Shown one piece after another: positions 2,506 through 45,736 of a stretch of DNA of 64,000 nt. The translations under genes were made by a program, and so were the position numbers. Within the stretch, counting starts at the first letter, position 1; every line of letters begins with the position of its first letter. The notes under the pieces are model-generated. The model searched no databases and was not told the DNA's origin. It was given only the letters and a program-made list of their open reading frames with translations. Origin of the DNA: Kiloniella sp. EL199 (GTDB lineage Bacteria; Pseudomonadota; Alphaproteobacteria; Kiloniellales; Kiloniellaceae); NCBI RefSeq assembly GCF_900313065.1, contig NZ_OMPU01000004.1, positions 62,001 through 126,000 on the forward strand. Direction: 5' to 3'.

Positions 2506-3432
2506 TCAGGATTTTGAAGACAAGGGATGCTTTTCAAATACCAGTTTCTGCAAACGCTCCTGCAAAACATGGGTATAAATCTGGGTTGTCGAGATATCAG
2601 AATGTCCCAGCATTTTCTGTACAGATCTCAAATCAGCACCATTTTCCAACAGATGGGTCGCAAAAGCATGACGCAAAACATGCGGAGATACCTTGGATGG
2701 CATGACGCCACTTTTTATAGCTAGCTCTTTTAGAAGCTGACCGACGCGATGACGTGTCAGGTAACCACTCTTCCCACGAGAAGGGAAAACCCATCCCGCA
2801 TCTTTGACTTTATCCTGCCCGAGATTTATAAAAAAATTATCACGTATTAGAAGATACCGGTCCAGTGCCTCACGCGCCTGAGGACTAAGAGGAACAAGCC
2901 GCTCTTTATTTCCTTTTCCCATTACAGTTAAAATACGGGAGTCACGCTGCGTTTGGGATATCTTCAAAGATACGAGTTCACTCACCCGCATCCCAGTAGC
3001 ATATAACAGCTCGATTAGCGCACAAAGGCGCAAACCTTCGTCTGTCTGATCGTCTTGTGCAGCTTTCAAAAGAGCATCGGTATCTTCCACAGAAAGAAAT
3101 TTTGGCAACGCTTGCGCCATACGCGGCGTGCCTATTTCCGCGACAGGATTATCTTGTCGCACACCTTCTTCCATAAGAAATAAATAAAACTGTTTTAAGG
3201 AAGACAAGTGGCGTGCCTGCGTTCGGGCACTTAGCGCCTCTACGGTTAGATCAGCCAAATAAGCCTTAATATCCGATGCTTCAACAGCCACTATATCTTT
3301 TCGGCGGCAAGACAAAAAATCATCAAACCGCATCAGATCACGTTCGTATGCTTCCAGAGTATTTTGGCTGGCCCCGCGTTCAGCAGACATCATCTCCAAA
3401 AAAGTGGAGATTCTGGATGCAGAAAACATCAA
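2506..3432 (-). CDS. xerD: Site-specific tyrosine recombinase XerD
   Basis: Tyrosine recombinase that acts with XerC at dif to resolve chromosome dimers. At 308 residues it has the normal length. It has the N-terminal SAM-like core-binding domain (about 10-95) and a complete catalytic set: Arg149 in TGMRVSEL, Lys in GKGNKER near 173, His251 and Arg254 in HVLRHAFATH, His277 in LGHSDIST, and the nucleophile Tyr286 in QIYTHV. The gene is a housekeeping recombinase rather than a mobile-element integrase. It sits 14 bp downstream of the large exported protein gene and is probably co-transcribed with it. Such genes commonly neighbour aroK in alphaproteobacteria, which is interrupted here. Confidence 0.93.
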   Translation of the reverse strand: MMFSASRISTFLEMMSAERGASQNTLEAYERDLMRFDDFLSCRRKDIVAVEASDIKAYLADLTVEALSARTQARHLSSLKQFYLFLMEEGVRQDNPVAEIGTPRMAQALPKFLSVEDTDALLKAAQDDQTDEGLRLCALIELLYATGMRVSELVSLKISQTQRDSRILTVMGKGNKERLVPLSPQAREALDRYLLIRDNFFINLGQDKVKDAGWVFPSRGKSGYLTRHRVGQLLKELAIKSGVMPSKVSPHVLRHAFATHLLENGADLRSVQKMLGHSDISTTQIYTHVLQERLQKLVFEKHPLSSKS

Positions 3433-41876: not shown

Positions 41877-42941
41877 TTATCTGTGGTCTGCGCCGACGGC
41901 TTCGGGCACAGAACCAAAACCATCTTGCTGCAACAAGACAATCAACTCGTTAAGGATCTGGGGGATAAGAGGCGGTCCGGCATAAACCAAGGCAGAGTAC
42001 AGTTGTACCAATGAAGCTCCTGCCCTTATTTTTGCATAGGCTTGTCTACCACTGGCGACACCACCAACACCGATTAAAGGAATTTTGCCCTTTGTTAATC
42101 GGTACATATCCCCCAAAACTTCTGTAGAGGCTTCAAAAAGCGGCGCGCCACTCAAGCCACCAATCTCGGTACGATGTTCACTTCTGAGGCTTTCAGGACG
42201 CTCAATTGTTGTATTTGTAATCGTCAGACCATCCAGAGAAAGATCCAGTGCAACCGATGCAATGTCCTGTTTATCTTCTACAGTTAGATCAGGTGCAATT
42301 TTCAAGACAAGTGGCGGAGCCTTATCACCAAGTGTCTCAGCCAACACCTCTTGCACTCCGGCAATCAAAACTTCAAGTTCCTCTCGCCCCTGAAGAGCTC
42401 TCAATCCCGGTGTATTAGGTGAAGAGACATTAATCACCATATAATCAGCATAAGGTGCTAATTTACGGGCACCCTTTTGATAGTCATCAAGAGCAACTTC
42501 AGTCGCTTTGTTTTTCCCGAGGTTAACCCCGAGCAATCCGGAAAGTTTCTTCTGGCGAAGCTGCGCTAGCTTTTCTTCAGCAGCCTCCATTCCCCCGTTA
42601 TTGAATCCCATACGATTAATAACGGCTTGATCTTCAGACAAGCGAAATACGCGCGGTTTCGGATTACCCGGTTGGGCCAGAGGAGTAATAGAACCAACTT
42701 CGGTAAATCCCAGCCCCTGATCAAGCATCGGTTCGACTGCGTCAACGTTTTTATCAAAGCCTGCAGCCAGCCCCAAAGGATTAGAAAACTCAAGACCCCA
42801 TAGGCTGGTTTTAAGAATTGGATCAGCAATAGCTTTTTGCGATGGGGCAAGCCCATACTTAAGACACCACAAAGTAAAGTTATGCGCTCTCTCAGGCGAC
42901 AAGAGGCGGACACAAGGACCAATGATATCAAAGCTGTTCAC
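41877..42941 (-). CDS. pyrD: Dihydroorotate dehydrogenase (quinone)
   Basis: Class 2 membrane-associated dihydroorotate dehydrogenase, 354 residues, feeding electrons to quinone in pyrimidine synthesis. A GTG start at 42941 is preceded by GGAG at six bases. The family features are the N-terminal amphipathic helices (SPERAHNFTLWCLKYGL), NPLGLAAGFDKN near 56-67, INRMGFNNGG near 108-117, NVSSPNTPGLR with the catalytic Ser near 176-185, and IGVGGVASGRQAYAKI near the end. It sits 133 bp downstream of the DUF952 gene, a frequent partner in this class. Confidence 0.95.
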   Translation of the reverse strand: MNSFDIIGPCVRLLSPERAHNFTLWCLKYGLAPSQKAIADPILKTSLWGLEFSNPLGLAAGFDKNVDAVEPMLDQGLGFTEVGSITPLAQPGNPKPRVFRLSEDQAVINRMGFNNGGMEAAEEKLAQLRQKKLSGLLGVNLGKNKATEVALDDYQKGARKLAPYADYMVINVSSPNTPGLRALQGREELEVLIAGVQEVLAETLGDKAPPLVLKIAPDLTVEDKQDIASVALDLSLDGLTITNTTIERPESLRSEHRTEIGGLSGAPLFEASTEVLGDMYRLTKGKIPLIGVGGVASGRQAYAKIRAGASLVQLYSALVYAGPPLIPQILNELIVLLQQDGFGSVPEAVGADHR

Positions 42942-43073: not shown

Positions 43074-43427
43074 TTATTTCCGCAACCAGTCGGGAAAAGC
43101 ATGTGTCCCATCATCTGTAAGAGTTAATGCAGCTGTTCTTGTAACGGCAGTTAACGGCAAATCACTATATAAATGAGGGAAAAGCGCTCCTCCTCTGGAA
43201 GGTTCCCATTTCAACGCCTCGCCGAGTAAGGCCGTATCAACCTCCAGCAAAACAAGTTCATCCTGACCTGCACGATGTTTCGCAACTGAGCCGTGAACCT
43301 GGCCGCGTCCAGAAAAATGAATAAAACCATCCGCTTTATCTTGTGAAGAGCCTGAATAGGTTCCCGCGTCTTGCGCCGCGGACCATTCTTCAAATTTGCA
43401 GACGTGATATATATATCTTTCAGTCAT
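43074..43427 (-). CDS. DUF952 family protein
   Basis: A 117-residue protein with the DUF952 pattern: IYHVCKFEEWSAAQDAGTYSG, DKADGFIHFSGRGQV with the FIHFS core, and the C-terminal LFPHLYSDLPLTAV. Function is not established, although an ADP-ribosyl-processing-like fold has been suggested for relatives. It precedes pyrD in the same direction. The long AT-rich intergenic region with TTTTGCAAAA-type palindromes lies just upstream of it. Confidence 0.87.
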   Translation of the reverse strand: MTERYIYHVCKFEEWSAAQDAGTYSGSSQDKADGFIHFSGRGQVHGSVAKHRAGQDELVLLEVDTALLGEALKWEPSRGGALFPHLYSDLPLTAVTRTAALTLTDDGTHAFPDWLRK

Positions 43428-43468
43428 GACATTATCTTCTTTTTCGAATCATACAATCGCAAAAAGCA

Positions 43469-43514
43469 TTGCATTTTGCAAAAAACAATGCATCTCATTT
43501 ACTGCAAAATGCAA
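43469..43514. repeat. Perfect 12-bp inverted repeat in the 43.4-43.8 kb intergenic region
   Basis: TTGCATTTTGCA (43469-43480) and TGCAAAATGCAA (43503-43514) are exact reverse complements 22 bp apart. The first arm merges into TTTTGCAAAA (43474-43483), and another TTTTGCAAAA occurs at 43657-43666. They are candidate sites for a dimeric regulator of the DUF952 gene or an upstream activator of the sigma-54 gene. Apart from these and the IHF site, the 422-bp gap holds no gene I can support. Confidence 0.6.
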
Positions 43515-43722
43515 CACTCGTACCATTATAACAACTTATAATTTCATTCGACTCAAGCTAAAACCCGCAGTTTATAAAGGATTTTAGTCAATCTTAAGTC
43601 GTGAAAACAAACAGAAACACCACCTGATACCTTTACATTCCGCAGAAACCCTCATTTTTTGCAAAATATCTTCAGTAGCACCTCGAAACCAAACAACCTC
43701 TTTTGATTTTTATTCCATTTAA

Positions 43723-43735
43723 AATCAATATTTTA
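43723..43735. promoter_or_regulatory. IHF-consensus site
   Basis: AATCAATATTTTA matches the IHF consensus WATCAANNNNTTR at every defined position and lies in A/T-rich DNA 40 bp upstream of the sigma-54 promoter. This is the usual place for an IHF bend between activator and promoter. Confidence 0.6.
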
Positions 43736-43774
43736 GCAACAAAAAATATTTAAAATTACAAAAATAAAACAAAC

Positions 43775-43790
43775 TGGCACGCTCTCTGCA
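43775..43790 (+). promoter_or_regulatory. Sigma-54 (RpoN) promoter of the 69-residue gene
   Basis: TGGCACGCTCTCTGCA matches TGGCACGNNNNTTGCW except for one T-to-C change. It has GG at -24 and GC at -12 with correct spacing. The predicted start is near 43801, about 50 bp before the ATG. No other -35/-10 pair of quality is seen. Confidence 0.8.
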
Positions 43791-43849
43791 ATACTCCCTG
43801 TCAGGAAGTCTATTGCGAGCTAGACATCCTAGTATAAAGGAGAAAACCC

Positions 43850-44059
43850 ATGGCATACCAAAACATGACAGCGAGCACTATCGGCAGCAGAGCATTGGCA
43901 ACTGCTCTAGACGCCGTATCAGCCATGGGACAGTCTGATCGTTCAATGATTTCGGCTTCTCCAAACACAGCGATTTACAATGTAGGATCGCAACAAAACG
44001 ACCTGGGCGAAGAAAATATTCGGCAACTCTTCGTTTCTATGGTTGAGGCAGAACAGTAA
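43850..44059 (+). CDS. 69-residue orphan protein under sigma-54 control
   Basis: A small gene with AAAGGAG seven bases before the ATG. The protein starts MAYQNMTASTIGSRALATAL and ends in an acidic segment EENIRQLFVSMVEAEQ. It has an Ala/Ser-rich helical first half and a polar middle. There is no signal peptide, membrane helix, cysteine or recognisable domain. The gene is real on several counts: a strong ribosome-binding site, a near-consensus sigma-54 promoter, an IHF site, and two tandem hairpins after the stop. It stands alone between convergent DUF952 and pseudouridine-synthase genes. Function is unknown. Confidence 0.82.
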   Translation: MAYQNMTASTIGSRALATALDAVSAMGQSDRSMISASPNTAIYNVGSQQNDLGEENIRQLFVSMVEAEQ

Positions 44060-44096
44060 CCCCCTCACGTTCTCAATCATCCAGGTCGCTAAAGGA

Positions 44097-44120
44097 CTGT
44101 CTTTAGCCTGTGAAAGACAG
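44097..44120 (+). repeat. First of two tandem hairpins after the 69-residue gene
   Basis: CTGTCTTT and AAAGACAG form a perfect 8-bp stem with an eight-base loop, 38 bp past the stop and 3 bp before the main terminator. It may protect the mRNA 3' end. Confidence 0.6.
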
Positions 44121-44123
44121 CCT

Positions 44124-44158
44124 AATGGCGGGAAGGTAACTTCCCGCCATTTCTTTTT
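44124..44158 (+). terminator. Strong terminator of the 69-residue gene
   Basis: A perfect 12-bp stem (AATGGCGGGAAG / CTTCCCGCCATT) with a GTAA loop is followed by TCTTTTT. It is the strongest terminator in the window and marks a short, probably abundant monocistronic transcript of about 350 nt. Confidence 0.9.
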
Positions 44159-44223
44159 CCCAACATACAAATATTCCTATAAGAAAAACAATCTAACGTT
44201 CACAAAAAACTCGACACACATTA

Positions 44224-44892
44224 TTATAAAATGTCCTTAGCAGAGACAATCTTCCATTCACCGGGTTGCATGTTTCCAAGCTTTAGTTTGCCAATCGATT
44301 CACGAACCAACCGCAATGTCGGGAAACCGACCGCAGCCGTCATTCTCTTTACCTGACGGTTTTTACCTTCGGTTAAAGAAATTCGTATCCAGGCTGTTGG
44401 TATGTTCTTTCGTTCCCGGATAGGTGGCGTTCTGGGTGGTAACTTCGGCTTAAACTTCAGCAGTTCAACCTGACAAGGCTTTGTTTTATATCCCTTGATA
44501 ACCACTCCGCTTTTTAGCTGCGACAATGCTTCTTCATTCGGAATATTTTCCACCTGTACAAGATAACTACGCTGGTGACCATTTCTGGGATGAATAAGAC
44601 GATCAATAAAGGGACCATCGTTACTTAAGAGCAATAAACCTTCACTGTCTTTATCCAAACGTCCTGCAGCATACACCCCACGTGGCAAATCAATTTCACG
44701 AAGAGTCCGTTGCCCTACCTCGCCCGTAAACTGACTCAAAACATTATAAGGTTTATACAAAGCAACATACGTGAAAGCAGATTGAAGATCGCTATCTTTT
44801 CTGACACCGGAAGCCTCTCTCCTTATTTTCCTCATGGAAAATTTAGACGAGGCATTCTTGCCAGAATACATACTTTCTTTTTTTTGAACCAT
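44224..44892 (-). CDS. Pseudouridine synthase, RluE type
   Basis: A 222-residue RsuA/RluB/E/F-family enzyme without an S4 domain, as in RluE (23S rRNA U2457). The catalytic Asp is in GRLDKDSEGLLLLSNDG near 93-109, and the conserved YKPYNVLSQF lies before it. The C-terminal ISLTEGKNRQVKRMTAAVGFPTLRLVR is typical. The N-terminal 35 residues are basic and probably a linker. A start further in is possible because no strong ribosome-binding site is seen for the first ATG. Target position is inferred from family only. Confidence 0.88.
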   Translation of the reverse strand: MVQKKESMYSGKNASSKFSMRKIRREASGVRKDSDLQSAFTYVALYKPYNVLSQFTGEVGQRTLREIDLPRGVYAAGRLDKDSEGLLLLSNDGPFIDRLIHPRNGHQRSYLVQVENIPNEEALSQLKSGVVIKGYKTKPCQVELLKFKPKLPPRTPPIRERKNIPTAWIRISLTEGKNRQVKRMTAAVGFPTLRLVRESIGKLKLGNMQPGEWKIVSAKDIL

Positions 44893-45103: not shown

Positions 45104-45736
45104 ATGCTTAAACATGCAGACATATGGCGTGCAATTGACAGTTTAGCCGTACAGAACTCGTTATCACCATCGGGCCTAGCACGGAAAGCAGGCTTGGATC
45201 CAACAACTTTCAATAAAAGTAAACGGGTCACCCCCAAAGACAAACAGCGGTGGCCCAGCACAGAATCTATCGCCAAAATTCTTGACGCAACAAATTCAAC
45301 TTTGGCTGAGTTTGTTAATCTGGTCGGGGAAGAAAGCGCTGGCCTCTTAGCCAAGAAAATCCCTGTTCAGGATTTAATTCAGGCATCTTCAATGGGACAA
45401 TTTGATCATAATGGCCATCCCGTCGGAGAAACATGGGACGAAGCCCTCTTTGCCCGTGTAGATGACACAAACGCATTTGGTTTGGAAATTACAGGCAATA
45501 GCTATCATCCAGTGTACAATGATGGCGATTTATTAATCATTTCACCAAATGCTGATCTGAGACGGGGTGACAGAATTGCCTTAATGACAATGAACCATGA
45601 AATCCTGCTCAAAGAACTCGTCAGGAACAGCCCGCTCAGAGCTGAATTGAAAGGTTTTGCAACATCACACCAGGATATAACGATCATGACACAGGATATT
45701 ATCTGGATTGCACGCATTATCTGGGCCAGCCAGTAA
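45104..45736 (+). CDS. XRE-HTH regulator with S24 (LexA/CI-like) domain
   Basis: A 210-residue regulator. The N-terminal helix-turn-helix (about 18-65: SPSGLARKAGLDPTTFNKSKR) joins a C-terminal S24 peptidase fold (about 95-205) with GNSYHPVYNDGDLLIISPNADLRRGDRI. Ser/Lys catalytic positions appear as GNSY (Ser) and LLKELV (Lys) in the family pattern. Proteins of this kind are chromosomal homologues of phage CI repressors, but no prophage genes are nearby. Self-cleavage capability cannot be told, as the Ala-Gly cleavage site is not evident. A consensus-like TATAAT lies about 60 bp upstream. Confidence 0.88.
   Translation: MLKHADIWRAIDSLAVQNSLSPSGLARKAGLDPTTFNKSKRVTPKDKQRWPSTESIAKILDATNSTLAEFVNLVGEESAGLLAKKIPVQDLIQASSMGQFDHNGHPVGETWDEALFARVDDTNAFGLEITGNSYHPVYNDGDLLIISPNADLRRGDRIALMTMNHEILLKELVRNSPLRAELKGFATSHQDITIMTQDIIWIARIIWASQ

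Follow-up and report, generated by a model that had tools for sequence, protein, structure and literature searches.

The 69-codon gene at positions 43850–44059 of the window (the whole stretch of 64,000 nucleotides of Kiloniella sp. EL199 DNA that was analysed) is, in the reading that we consider rather likely, the output of a LuxU–LuxO-like phosphorelay and probably a dual-function counterpart of qrr, acting both as a protein and as an RNA. Judged from the sequence, its regulation is well supported; what its product does we infer. The decisive element, overlooked in the original prediction, is a pair of LuxO-type enhancer repeats upstream of the gene; the constraint on the RNA had likewise escaped notice there.

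The small gene and its product

The gene and its surroundings contain the following features:

41877–42941, minus strand: gene beyond the DUF952 gene, which we take to be pyrD by its sequence
43074–43427, minus strand: divergent DUF952 gene, a marker of the locus
43803–43830, plus strand: leader stem-loop, with the loop UUGCGAGC at 43813–43820 invariant in 9/9 Kiloniella copies
43836–43842, plus strand: ribosome-binding site AAAGGAG, with AGGAG invariant in the nine-copy alignment
43850–44059, plus strand: ORF of 69 codons (69 amino acids), with a protein motif and unusually conserved fourfold-degenerate sites
44049–44068, plus strand: block across the stop codon, CAGAACAGTAACCCCCTCAC, with 19 of 20 columns invariant in nine copies
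44094–44122, plus strand: first 3' hairpin, in which 6 of 10 predicted consensus pairs have changes on both sides with pairing kept
44124–44151, plus strand: second 3' hairpin, a 12-bp perfect stem followed by a T-rich run, likely an intrinsic terminator
45104–45736, plus strand: HTH / S24-peptidase-like regulator gene

The ribosome-binding site, the 69-codon ORF and the two tandem hairpins, one with a 12-bp perfect stem, were all present as originally described, and the region 44085–44170 gave a folding z-score of −6.4 that was equalled by none of 200 shuffles. The ORF was exactly 69 codons long in all nine Kiloniella copies, and each of the 36 pairs of Kiloniella copies had a dN/dS below 1 (0.07–0.70). 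The most open alternative frame (sense, +2) was interrupted by internal stops in six of the nine copies, and in every copy it was closed four codons short of its end. Judged by dN/dS and by the absence of a rival frame open in the nine copies, the ORF is real.

The protein has a core, GSRALxxALDAVxAxG, followed by the C-terminal motif P...ML.AGA..G.vs...a..iY.AM, which can also be rendered as P..(M/I)..(A/V)G......R..(F/Y)..M. It had been called an orphan matching no family. The second half of this description held for Pfam, in which the window protein and nine relatives matched no family at E ≤ 10, and for NCBIfam, which gave one chance match (0.024), but the product is no orphan, having homologues across the Alphaproteobacteria. 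One of 13 members of the small-gene family had a stray Pfam SANTA match (E 0.14), and a resemblance to the R-body/RebB 'killing trait' was dropped, as the window protein and its relatives had no Pfam match. PHROG 5913 (173 positions, function unknown) was compared with three proteins and matched the C-terminal motif in two of them (9e-7 and 0.001) but did not match the window protein. Its best match (9e-7) was the C-terminal part of the small ORF at locus L026, so the motif may also end some phage proteins. Among PDB sequences a single profile match fell below 0.001 (6ff6 BRIC1, 6e-5, 36 residues) and was judged to reflect chance or composition, and Foldseek with the predicted structure returned no match at E ≤ 0.001. 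A first structure model reached a pLDDT of 60.7 and a second, built from 36 sequences, a pLDDT of 72.3 with a pTM of 0.40 and three helices; from these models the helix count alone was used.

A conserved sigma-54 promoter and paired enhancer repeats

The upstream region contains the following elements:

43469–43481, no strand assigned: enhancer repeat 1, TTGCATTTTGCAA, a perfect match to the LuxO upstream activating sequence (UAS) TTGCAWWWTGCAA
43502–43514, no strand assigned: enhancer repeat 2, CTGCAAAATGCAA, with one mismatch, starting 33 bp after repeat 1
43723–43735, plus strand: IHF consensus match AATCAATATTTTA, perfect to WATCAANNNNTTR, 40 bp 5' of the promoter, weakly supported
43775–43790, plus strand: sigma-54 −24/−12 promoter TGGCACGCTCTCTGCA, matching 11 of 12 specified positions of TGGCACGNNNNTTGCW

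The predicted sigma-54 promoter was present, with 11 of 12 positions, and was kept in all nine Kiloniella copies. Two sites with at most one mismatch were found in the 64-kb window, and 15 with at most two mismatches compared with 10.9 expected, a number that 15 of 100 shuffles reached; a lone sigma-54 motif is therefore not beyond chance and proves little, and the real support comes from conservation. The site lay 74–76 nt 5' of the ATG in 9/9 Kiloniella copies, matching at 10–11 of 12 positions, and was present in the four Denitrobaculum-type copies. A search for homologues together with their upstream regions found both the frame and the promoter conserved in related genomes, and this conservation across genera supports the enhancer-dependent sigma-54 control proposed for the small gene. 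The IHF site proved the weakest part of the original prediction: the perfect match 40 bp upstream was there, and a perfect match about 75–200 nt 5' of the ATG occurred in three of nine Kiloniella copies and in none of the four Denitrobaculum-type copies, the 64-kb window holding ten perfect matches on both strands. Being poorly conserved, IHF was rejected as a strong element. A second sigma-54-like site (11/12), at 43510–43525, overlaps enhancer repeat 2; it is on the minus strand and faces DUF952; no counterpart with at least 10/12 was seen 5' of the other eight Kiloniella copies, and the site, present among the nine in the window copy only, was set aside.

The paired repeats sit about 260–305 bp 5' of the promoter. 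They match the LuxO enhancer as published, given as TTGCAWWWTGCAA (PMC10162802) and as TTGCA-N3-TGCAA (PMC3352281), and also ttgcaaaatgcaa and ttgcattttgcaa, two sites that ChIP-seq of V. cholerae LuxO located at qrr genes (PMC10328515). The conserved stretches of the Kiloniella upstream alignment were the two TTGCA-N3-TGCAA repeats, the CCGCAGAAACCCTCA block, and the sigma-54 site with the leader. The CCGCAGAAACCCTCA block lies at 43640–43654, between the repeats and the promoter, with most positions conserved in the nine copies. The Kiloniella genome studied here held 24 repeat sites with at most one mismatch, compared with 14 for a reversed control pattern, and the window pair was the sole pair of such sites within 50 bp.

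We scored as a unit any repeat (at most one mismatch) located 30–300 bp 5' of a sigma-54 site (at least 10/12) within 400 nt of the match start. Such units were found at 9/9 Kiloniella copies, at 4/10 order-level loci, which were all four Denitrobaculum-type copies, and at 11/26 class-level loci, while the averages after dinucleotide shuffling were 0.00, 0.01 and 0.01, with a maximum of 1 in 200 rounds. Two repeats 30–33 bp apart were seen in six of nine Kiloniella copies, in 4/4 Denitrobaculum-type copies and at 5/26 class loci, the other three Kiloniella copies having a single repeat at this stringency. The repeat–promoter pair was absent from 15 of the 26 class loci; four f3 loci had neither repeat nor sigma-54 site, and two g17 loci had a sigma-54 site and no repeat with at most one mismatch.

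Repeat sites elsewhere were examined in 13 regions, five of which (L105–L109) had a sigma-54 site of at least 11/12 within about 190 bp and in the right order. The remaining eight (L110–L117) had no properly placed sigma-54 site, four of them having 10/12 sites elsewhere; the closest of these, in L114, was separated from the repeat by 268 bp and lay in the wrong order relative to it. In L110–L114 the repeat fell inside an ORF. These eight were judged chance occurrences. PhaR-type phasin regulation uses TTGC-N3-GCAA, and was set aside as an explanation of the repeats: the spacing differs and the repeats accompany sigma-54 promoters.

Of the five loci with both signals, L107 of genome G009 carries a TTGCATTTTGCAA site and a sigma-54 site (11/12) at 3017–3109 before a small-protein gene whose product is probably exported. 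A second, larger gene of 633 codons follows the small-protein gene, and a second LuxO-like gene lies about 5 kb off. This arrangement, considered together with L154, may be a local LuxO-type system with another target.

A second repeat-bearing unit in Denitrobaculum-type genomes

All four Denitrobaculum-type genomes had another locus at which a sigma-54 site (11–12/12) was accompanied by a perfect repeat or by two. Behind these signals about 140 nt were near-identical between genomes and closed with a strong terminator, made up of a hairpin rich in GC (11 bp in L108) and a T-run. The short RNA genes at these loci are:

L105, 2690–2860, minus strand: short RNA gene
L106, 3140–3310: short RNA gene
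L108, 3153–3322: short RNA gene
L109, 3174–3343: short RNA gene

L108 2900–3600, the one of the four that was compared with Rfam, gave no match. In its layout this second unit is organised like a qrr gene, and its product looks like a non-coding RNA. Its existence leads us to read the repeats as enhancers of sigma-54 promoters generally and not as a DUF952 operator. A kissing interaction of this RNA with the small-gene leader, noticed by eye, was dropped because it looks broken in L109.

Distribution and genomic setting

Full-length relatives were found in eight of nine Kiloniella genomes, including the one under study, the other copies being 64–90% identical; two copies in G006 bring the total to nine. 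The gene was undetected in G007 (Kiloniella, 97% complete), although LuxO and HPt are present there, reflecting either a lost gene or an assembly gap. Relatives also occurred in all four genomes of the neighbouring genus including Denitrobaculum (about 30% identity) and in two genomes from another family of the order (L029 and L030). In the class search, 29 of 385 alphaproteobacterial genomes gave a match at E ≤ 0.001, with class-wide protein identities of about 10–31% over 36 chosen rows. L196 (G382), which by eye lies inside a Mrp-type ATPase-like frame, was excluded from the 26 class loci and from the class carriers; L172 corresponds to G012 and was already counted, L177 is the order-level locus L031, and the second G171 match yielded no locus.

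The genomic setting was conserved too, as counted in loci of about 3 kb, which miss more distant neighbours. A divergent pyrD lay upstream at 10/10 order-level loci tested and at 19/26 class-level loci, with DUF952 between pyrD and the small gene at ten order-level and 11 class-level loci, and the HTH/S24 gene lay downstream at 7/10 and 2/26 loci, respectively. In Kiloniella the divergent DUF952 gene likewise has the repeats 5' of it, at 42–87 bp, and may be the gene that they serve.

A LuxO-like activator and an adjacent HPt gene

The genome encodes nine sigma-54 activators. For two of them, L122 and L123, the LuxO model scored highest, at 651 and 609 bits where the next families reached 398 and 369, with matches covering positions 1–461 and 2–461 of the 463-position profile at about 240–250 bits above the next family. 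Neither reached the 800 bits of the LuxO equivalog cut-off NF041946, and nor did any protein in the 61 order genomes or the 43 class genomes examined. Of the other activators, three passed the cut-offs of the NtrC, NtrX and PspF models and two more fitted FlbD (742 bits where 750 are required) and TyrR (491 where 576 are required) below cut-off, while L120 and L124 had no activator family above cut-off. The best PDB match of L122 was LuxO itself (5ep0, E 1e-140). Directly 5' of L122 there is an HPt-domain gene (PF01627, 2.5e-10 in this genome), an arrangement found at 8/8 Kiloniella loci of the L122 type; when 19 further luxO-like loci were checked, two (L150 and L154) had HPt-like sequence, suggesting that the pairing of HPt with luxO is for the most part peculiar to Kiloniella.

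The L122 type was present in eight of nine Kiloniella genomes; among these nine, a second LuxO-like gene was found in the genome under study only (E ≤ 1e-125). At the same threshold LuxO-like genes occurred in 25 of 61 order genomes, comprising 13 of 18 small-gene carriers and 12 of 43 others, as raw counts that ignore phylogeny and genome size. The five carriers without a LuxO-like match were G005, G025, G026, G027 and G041, and the small gene was undetected in 12 of the 25 LuxO-bearing genomes, including G007. In the class, at E ≤ 1e-110, LuxO-like genes were found in 18 of 24 carriers compared with three of 19 non-carriers, again as raw counts and with the non-carriers picked, not drawn at random, from 356 genomes listed without a match; two of the three positive non-carriers scored 378–386 bits only, as ordinary relatives do. 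Where the class locus combines repeat and promoter, 10 of the 11 genomes had a LuxO-like gene, the exception being G333 (86% complete); so did the genomes of nine of the 15 class loci without the pair.

The second LuxO-like protein of the genome (L128 6097–7590) has as neighbours a gene resembling mannose-1-phosphate guanylyltransferase and a PilZ-like gene with a sigma-54 site (11/12) 5' of it, at L128 11883–11898; both neighbours were named by eye. This protein is possibly a SypG-type polysaccharide regulator.

Constraint at the RNA level

Fourfold-degenerate sites of the small ORF were 0.798 identical between species (697/873), compared with 0.326–0.433 in nine neighbour genes (6–8 sequences each), suggesting that the mRNA itself is constrained. 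In the same seven genomes, the corresponding values were 0.819 for the small gene and 0.379 for luxO. All thirds of the ORF were constrained (0.843, 0.720 and 0.825). The gene's own codon usage predicts an identity of 0.339, which makes codon bias an unlikely cause. In agreement with this, different synonymous codons were fixed at different positions (Ala as GCA at residues 15 and 17, GCG at 8 and GCC at 22, and Leu20 mostly as CTA), so that a single favoured codon set does not explain the constraint. An overlapping or antisense gene was rejected as the cause, no other frame being open in all nine copies. This pattern looks like that expected of a transcript that, in addition to coding for a protein, acts as an RNA.

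Comparison of 43400–44300 with Rfam (4227 families) gave five matches, all below the gathering scores (four miRNA families and one sraA) and none of them Qrr. Pairing with the mRNA of a master regulator, which in qrr RNAs depends on Hfq, was probed in a limited way by duplex tests against four candidate genes (luxR, the paralogue, luxO and hpt) in six genomes, and no consistent signal emerged: z-scores of the leader against luxO ranged from −2.3 to −0.3 in the six genomes, and strong values, such as −4.0 for the leader against the paralogue in G004, were isolated and did not recur.

Paralogues beside luxR

Short paralogues sharing the N-terminal motif (of the SRAL/SKAL..ALDAV.AM type in Kiloniella) lie directly 3' of luxR with a luxI-type gene 5' at L011, L013, L014 and L015, and beside luxR at L002 and L012, where no luxI was seen within 3 kb. 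Pfam confirmed three of these assignments (LuxI and LuxR at L014, LuxR at L002), and the rest were judged by eye. These proteins are candidates for a new quorum-sensing accessory protein, and their position suggests that the small protein may modulate acyl-homoserine-lactone quorum sensing, perhaps by binding LuxR and antagonising it. Since the shared stretch is short (about 20–30 residues, E 4e-5 to 7e-4), we infer this link to LuxR/LuxI signalling with caution.

Alternative explanations

Control by LuxO and sigma-54 could be right and the transcript still be a plain small-protein mRNA, its synonymous conservation reflecting translation, mRNA stability or very high expression. This possibility, which we place on the unlikely side, fits the coding constraint (dN/dS < 1 in 36/36 pairs), the class-wide protein relatives at about 10–31% identity and the duplex tests, which gave no RNA target, but it leaves unexplained why synonymous codons are specific to position, with 0.798 observed where 0.339 is expected, and why every third of the ORF is constrained (0.843, 0.720, 0.825). 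At the other extreme, the locus might encode a purely Qrr-like regulatory RNA with an incidental ORF, as the strong nucleotide constraint in the leader, ORF and 3' region and the resemblance of the Denitrobaculum-type second locus to a non-coding RNA would allow; the constant length of 69 codons in 9/9 Kiloniella copies, dN/dS below 1 and the occurrence of the protein motif in other families of the class make this most improbable.

In a further alternative, the repeats might be bound by another regulator, be it the genome's other LuxO-like protein or one that controls DUF952 or pyrD, with the promoter answering to, for example, NtrC. There are two LuxO-like proteins in the genome, the repeats lie in a shared intergenic region and nearer to DUF952 in Kiloniella, and SypG and LuxO of V. 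fischeri use overlapping UAS (PMC10162802). However, repeats accompany sigma-54 sites at other loci too (L105–L109) and are also found where pyrD alone, without DUF952, was detected alongside (L173, L176 and L189); moreover, it is L122 that has the HPt neighbour and whose type occurs in 8/9 Kiloniella genomes, and among the nine a second LuxO-like gene was found in the genome under study only (E ≤ 1e-125). We regard binding by another regulator as quite unlikely.

Discussion

In the phosphorelay reading that we favour, a signal would pass by phosphotransfer from the HPt protein to the LuxO-like enhancer-binding protein, which would bind the paired TTGCA-N3-TGCAA sites and, through DNA looping perhaps aided by IHF, act on sigma-54 RNA polymerase. 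Transcription would run from about 43801 to the double hairpin and yield an RNA of about 350 nt, from which both the 69-residue protein (three helices predicted) and a Qrr-like regulatory RNA would derive, each with a putative partner or target. If the gene behaves as its Vibrio counterparts do, it would be strongly expressed at low density. As the transcript encodes a protein and is also conserved as RNA, it probably has two functions.

The LuxO–Qrr circuit is a textbook system of the Vibrionaceae. Like the Vibrio qrr genes, the Kiloniella gene combines a LuxO-type UAS (at least one in each of the nine Kiloniella copies), a sigma-54 promoter between UAS and transcript, a short transcript with a hairpin terminator and a LuxO-like activator encoded in the genome. 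It differs from them in that its transcript encodes a conserved protein and so is not non-coding, in having no Rfam Qrr match, and in being alphaproteobacterial and located beside DUF952/pyrD, not luxO. The pairing of HPt and LuxO-family genes at the 8/8 Kiloniella loci of the L122 type recalls Vibrio LuxU–LuxO, with phosphotransfer predicted, but in Kiloniella the HPt gene is upstream of luxO and the scores are below the Vibrio LuxO cut-off. SgrS is a dual-function sRNA that also encodes a small protein; with such RNAs the gene shares constraint at both the protein and the RNA level in one short transcript, whereas its regulator is a different one and its RNA function is putative. SypG of V. 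fischeri is a paralogue of LuxO (PMC10162802), and the second LuxO-like protein, encoded near polysaccharide-type genes (L128, by eye), could likewise use the same sites.

LuxO-like proteins in the class are not new in themselves. In a 2004 survey of 138 organisms (PMC524169), a LuxO orthologue is reported in Bradyrhizobium japonicum, homologues in most Proteobacteria, and LuxU only in Vibrio, and a Micavibrio genome paper names LuxO and no target (PMC3189940). No description of such a LuxO target was found in the searches of open-licence PMC papers on LuxO/Qrr, the Alphaproteobacteria and Kiloniella quorum sensing; with this coverage, the novelty of the small-gene target is provisional.

More tentatively, and with less than even confidence, we propose that the gene belongs to an old, class-wide LuxO–sigma-54 regulon whose core output is a dual-function RNA (small protein plus Qrr-like base-pairing RNA) beside pyrD/DUF952, that Qrr would be a derived form of it, and that in Kiloniella the output would feed into LuxI/LuxR through the small protein. 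If this were true, the LuxU–LuxO–UAS–sigma-54 architecture would be far older and wider than Vibrio. The recurrence of the gene, often with its switch, in other alphaproteobacteria suggests that a quorum-sensing-like circuit may be older and more widespread than thought. The same type of enhancer, promoter and activator driving a constrained small-protein mRNA in the Alphaproteobacteria would recast the evolution of LuxO–Qrr, would point to a candidate pathway by which these bacteria sense density or a signal, and would offer a handle on the function of their LuxO-like proteins.
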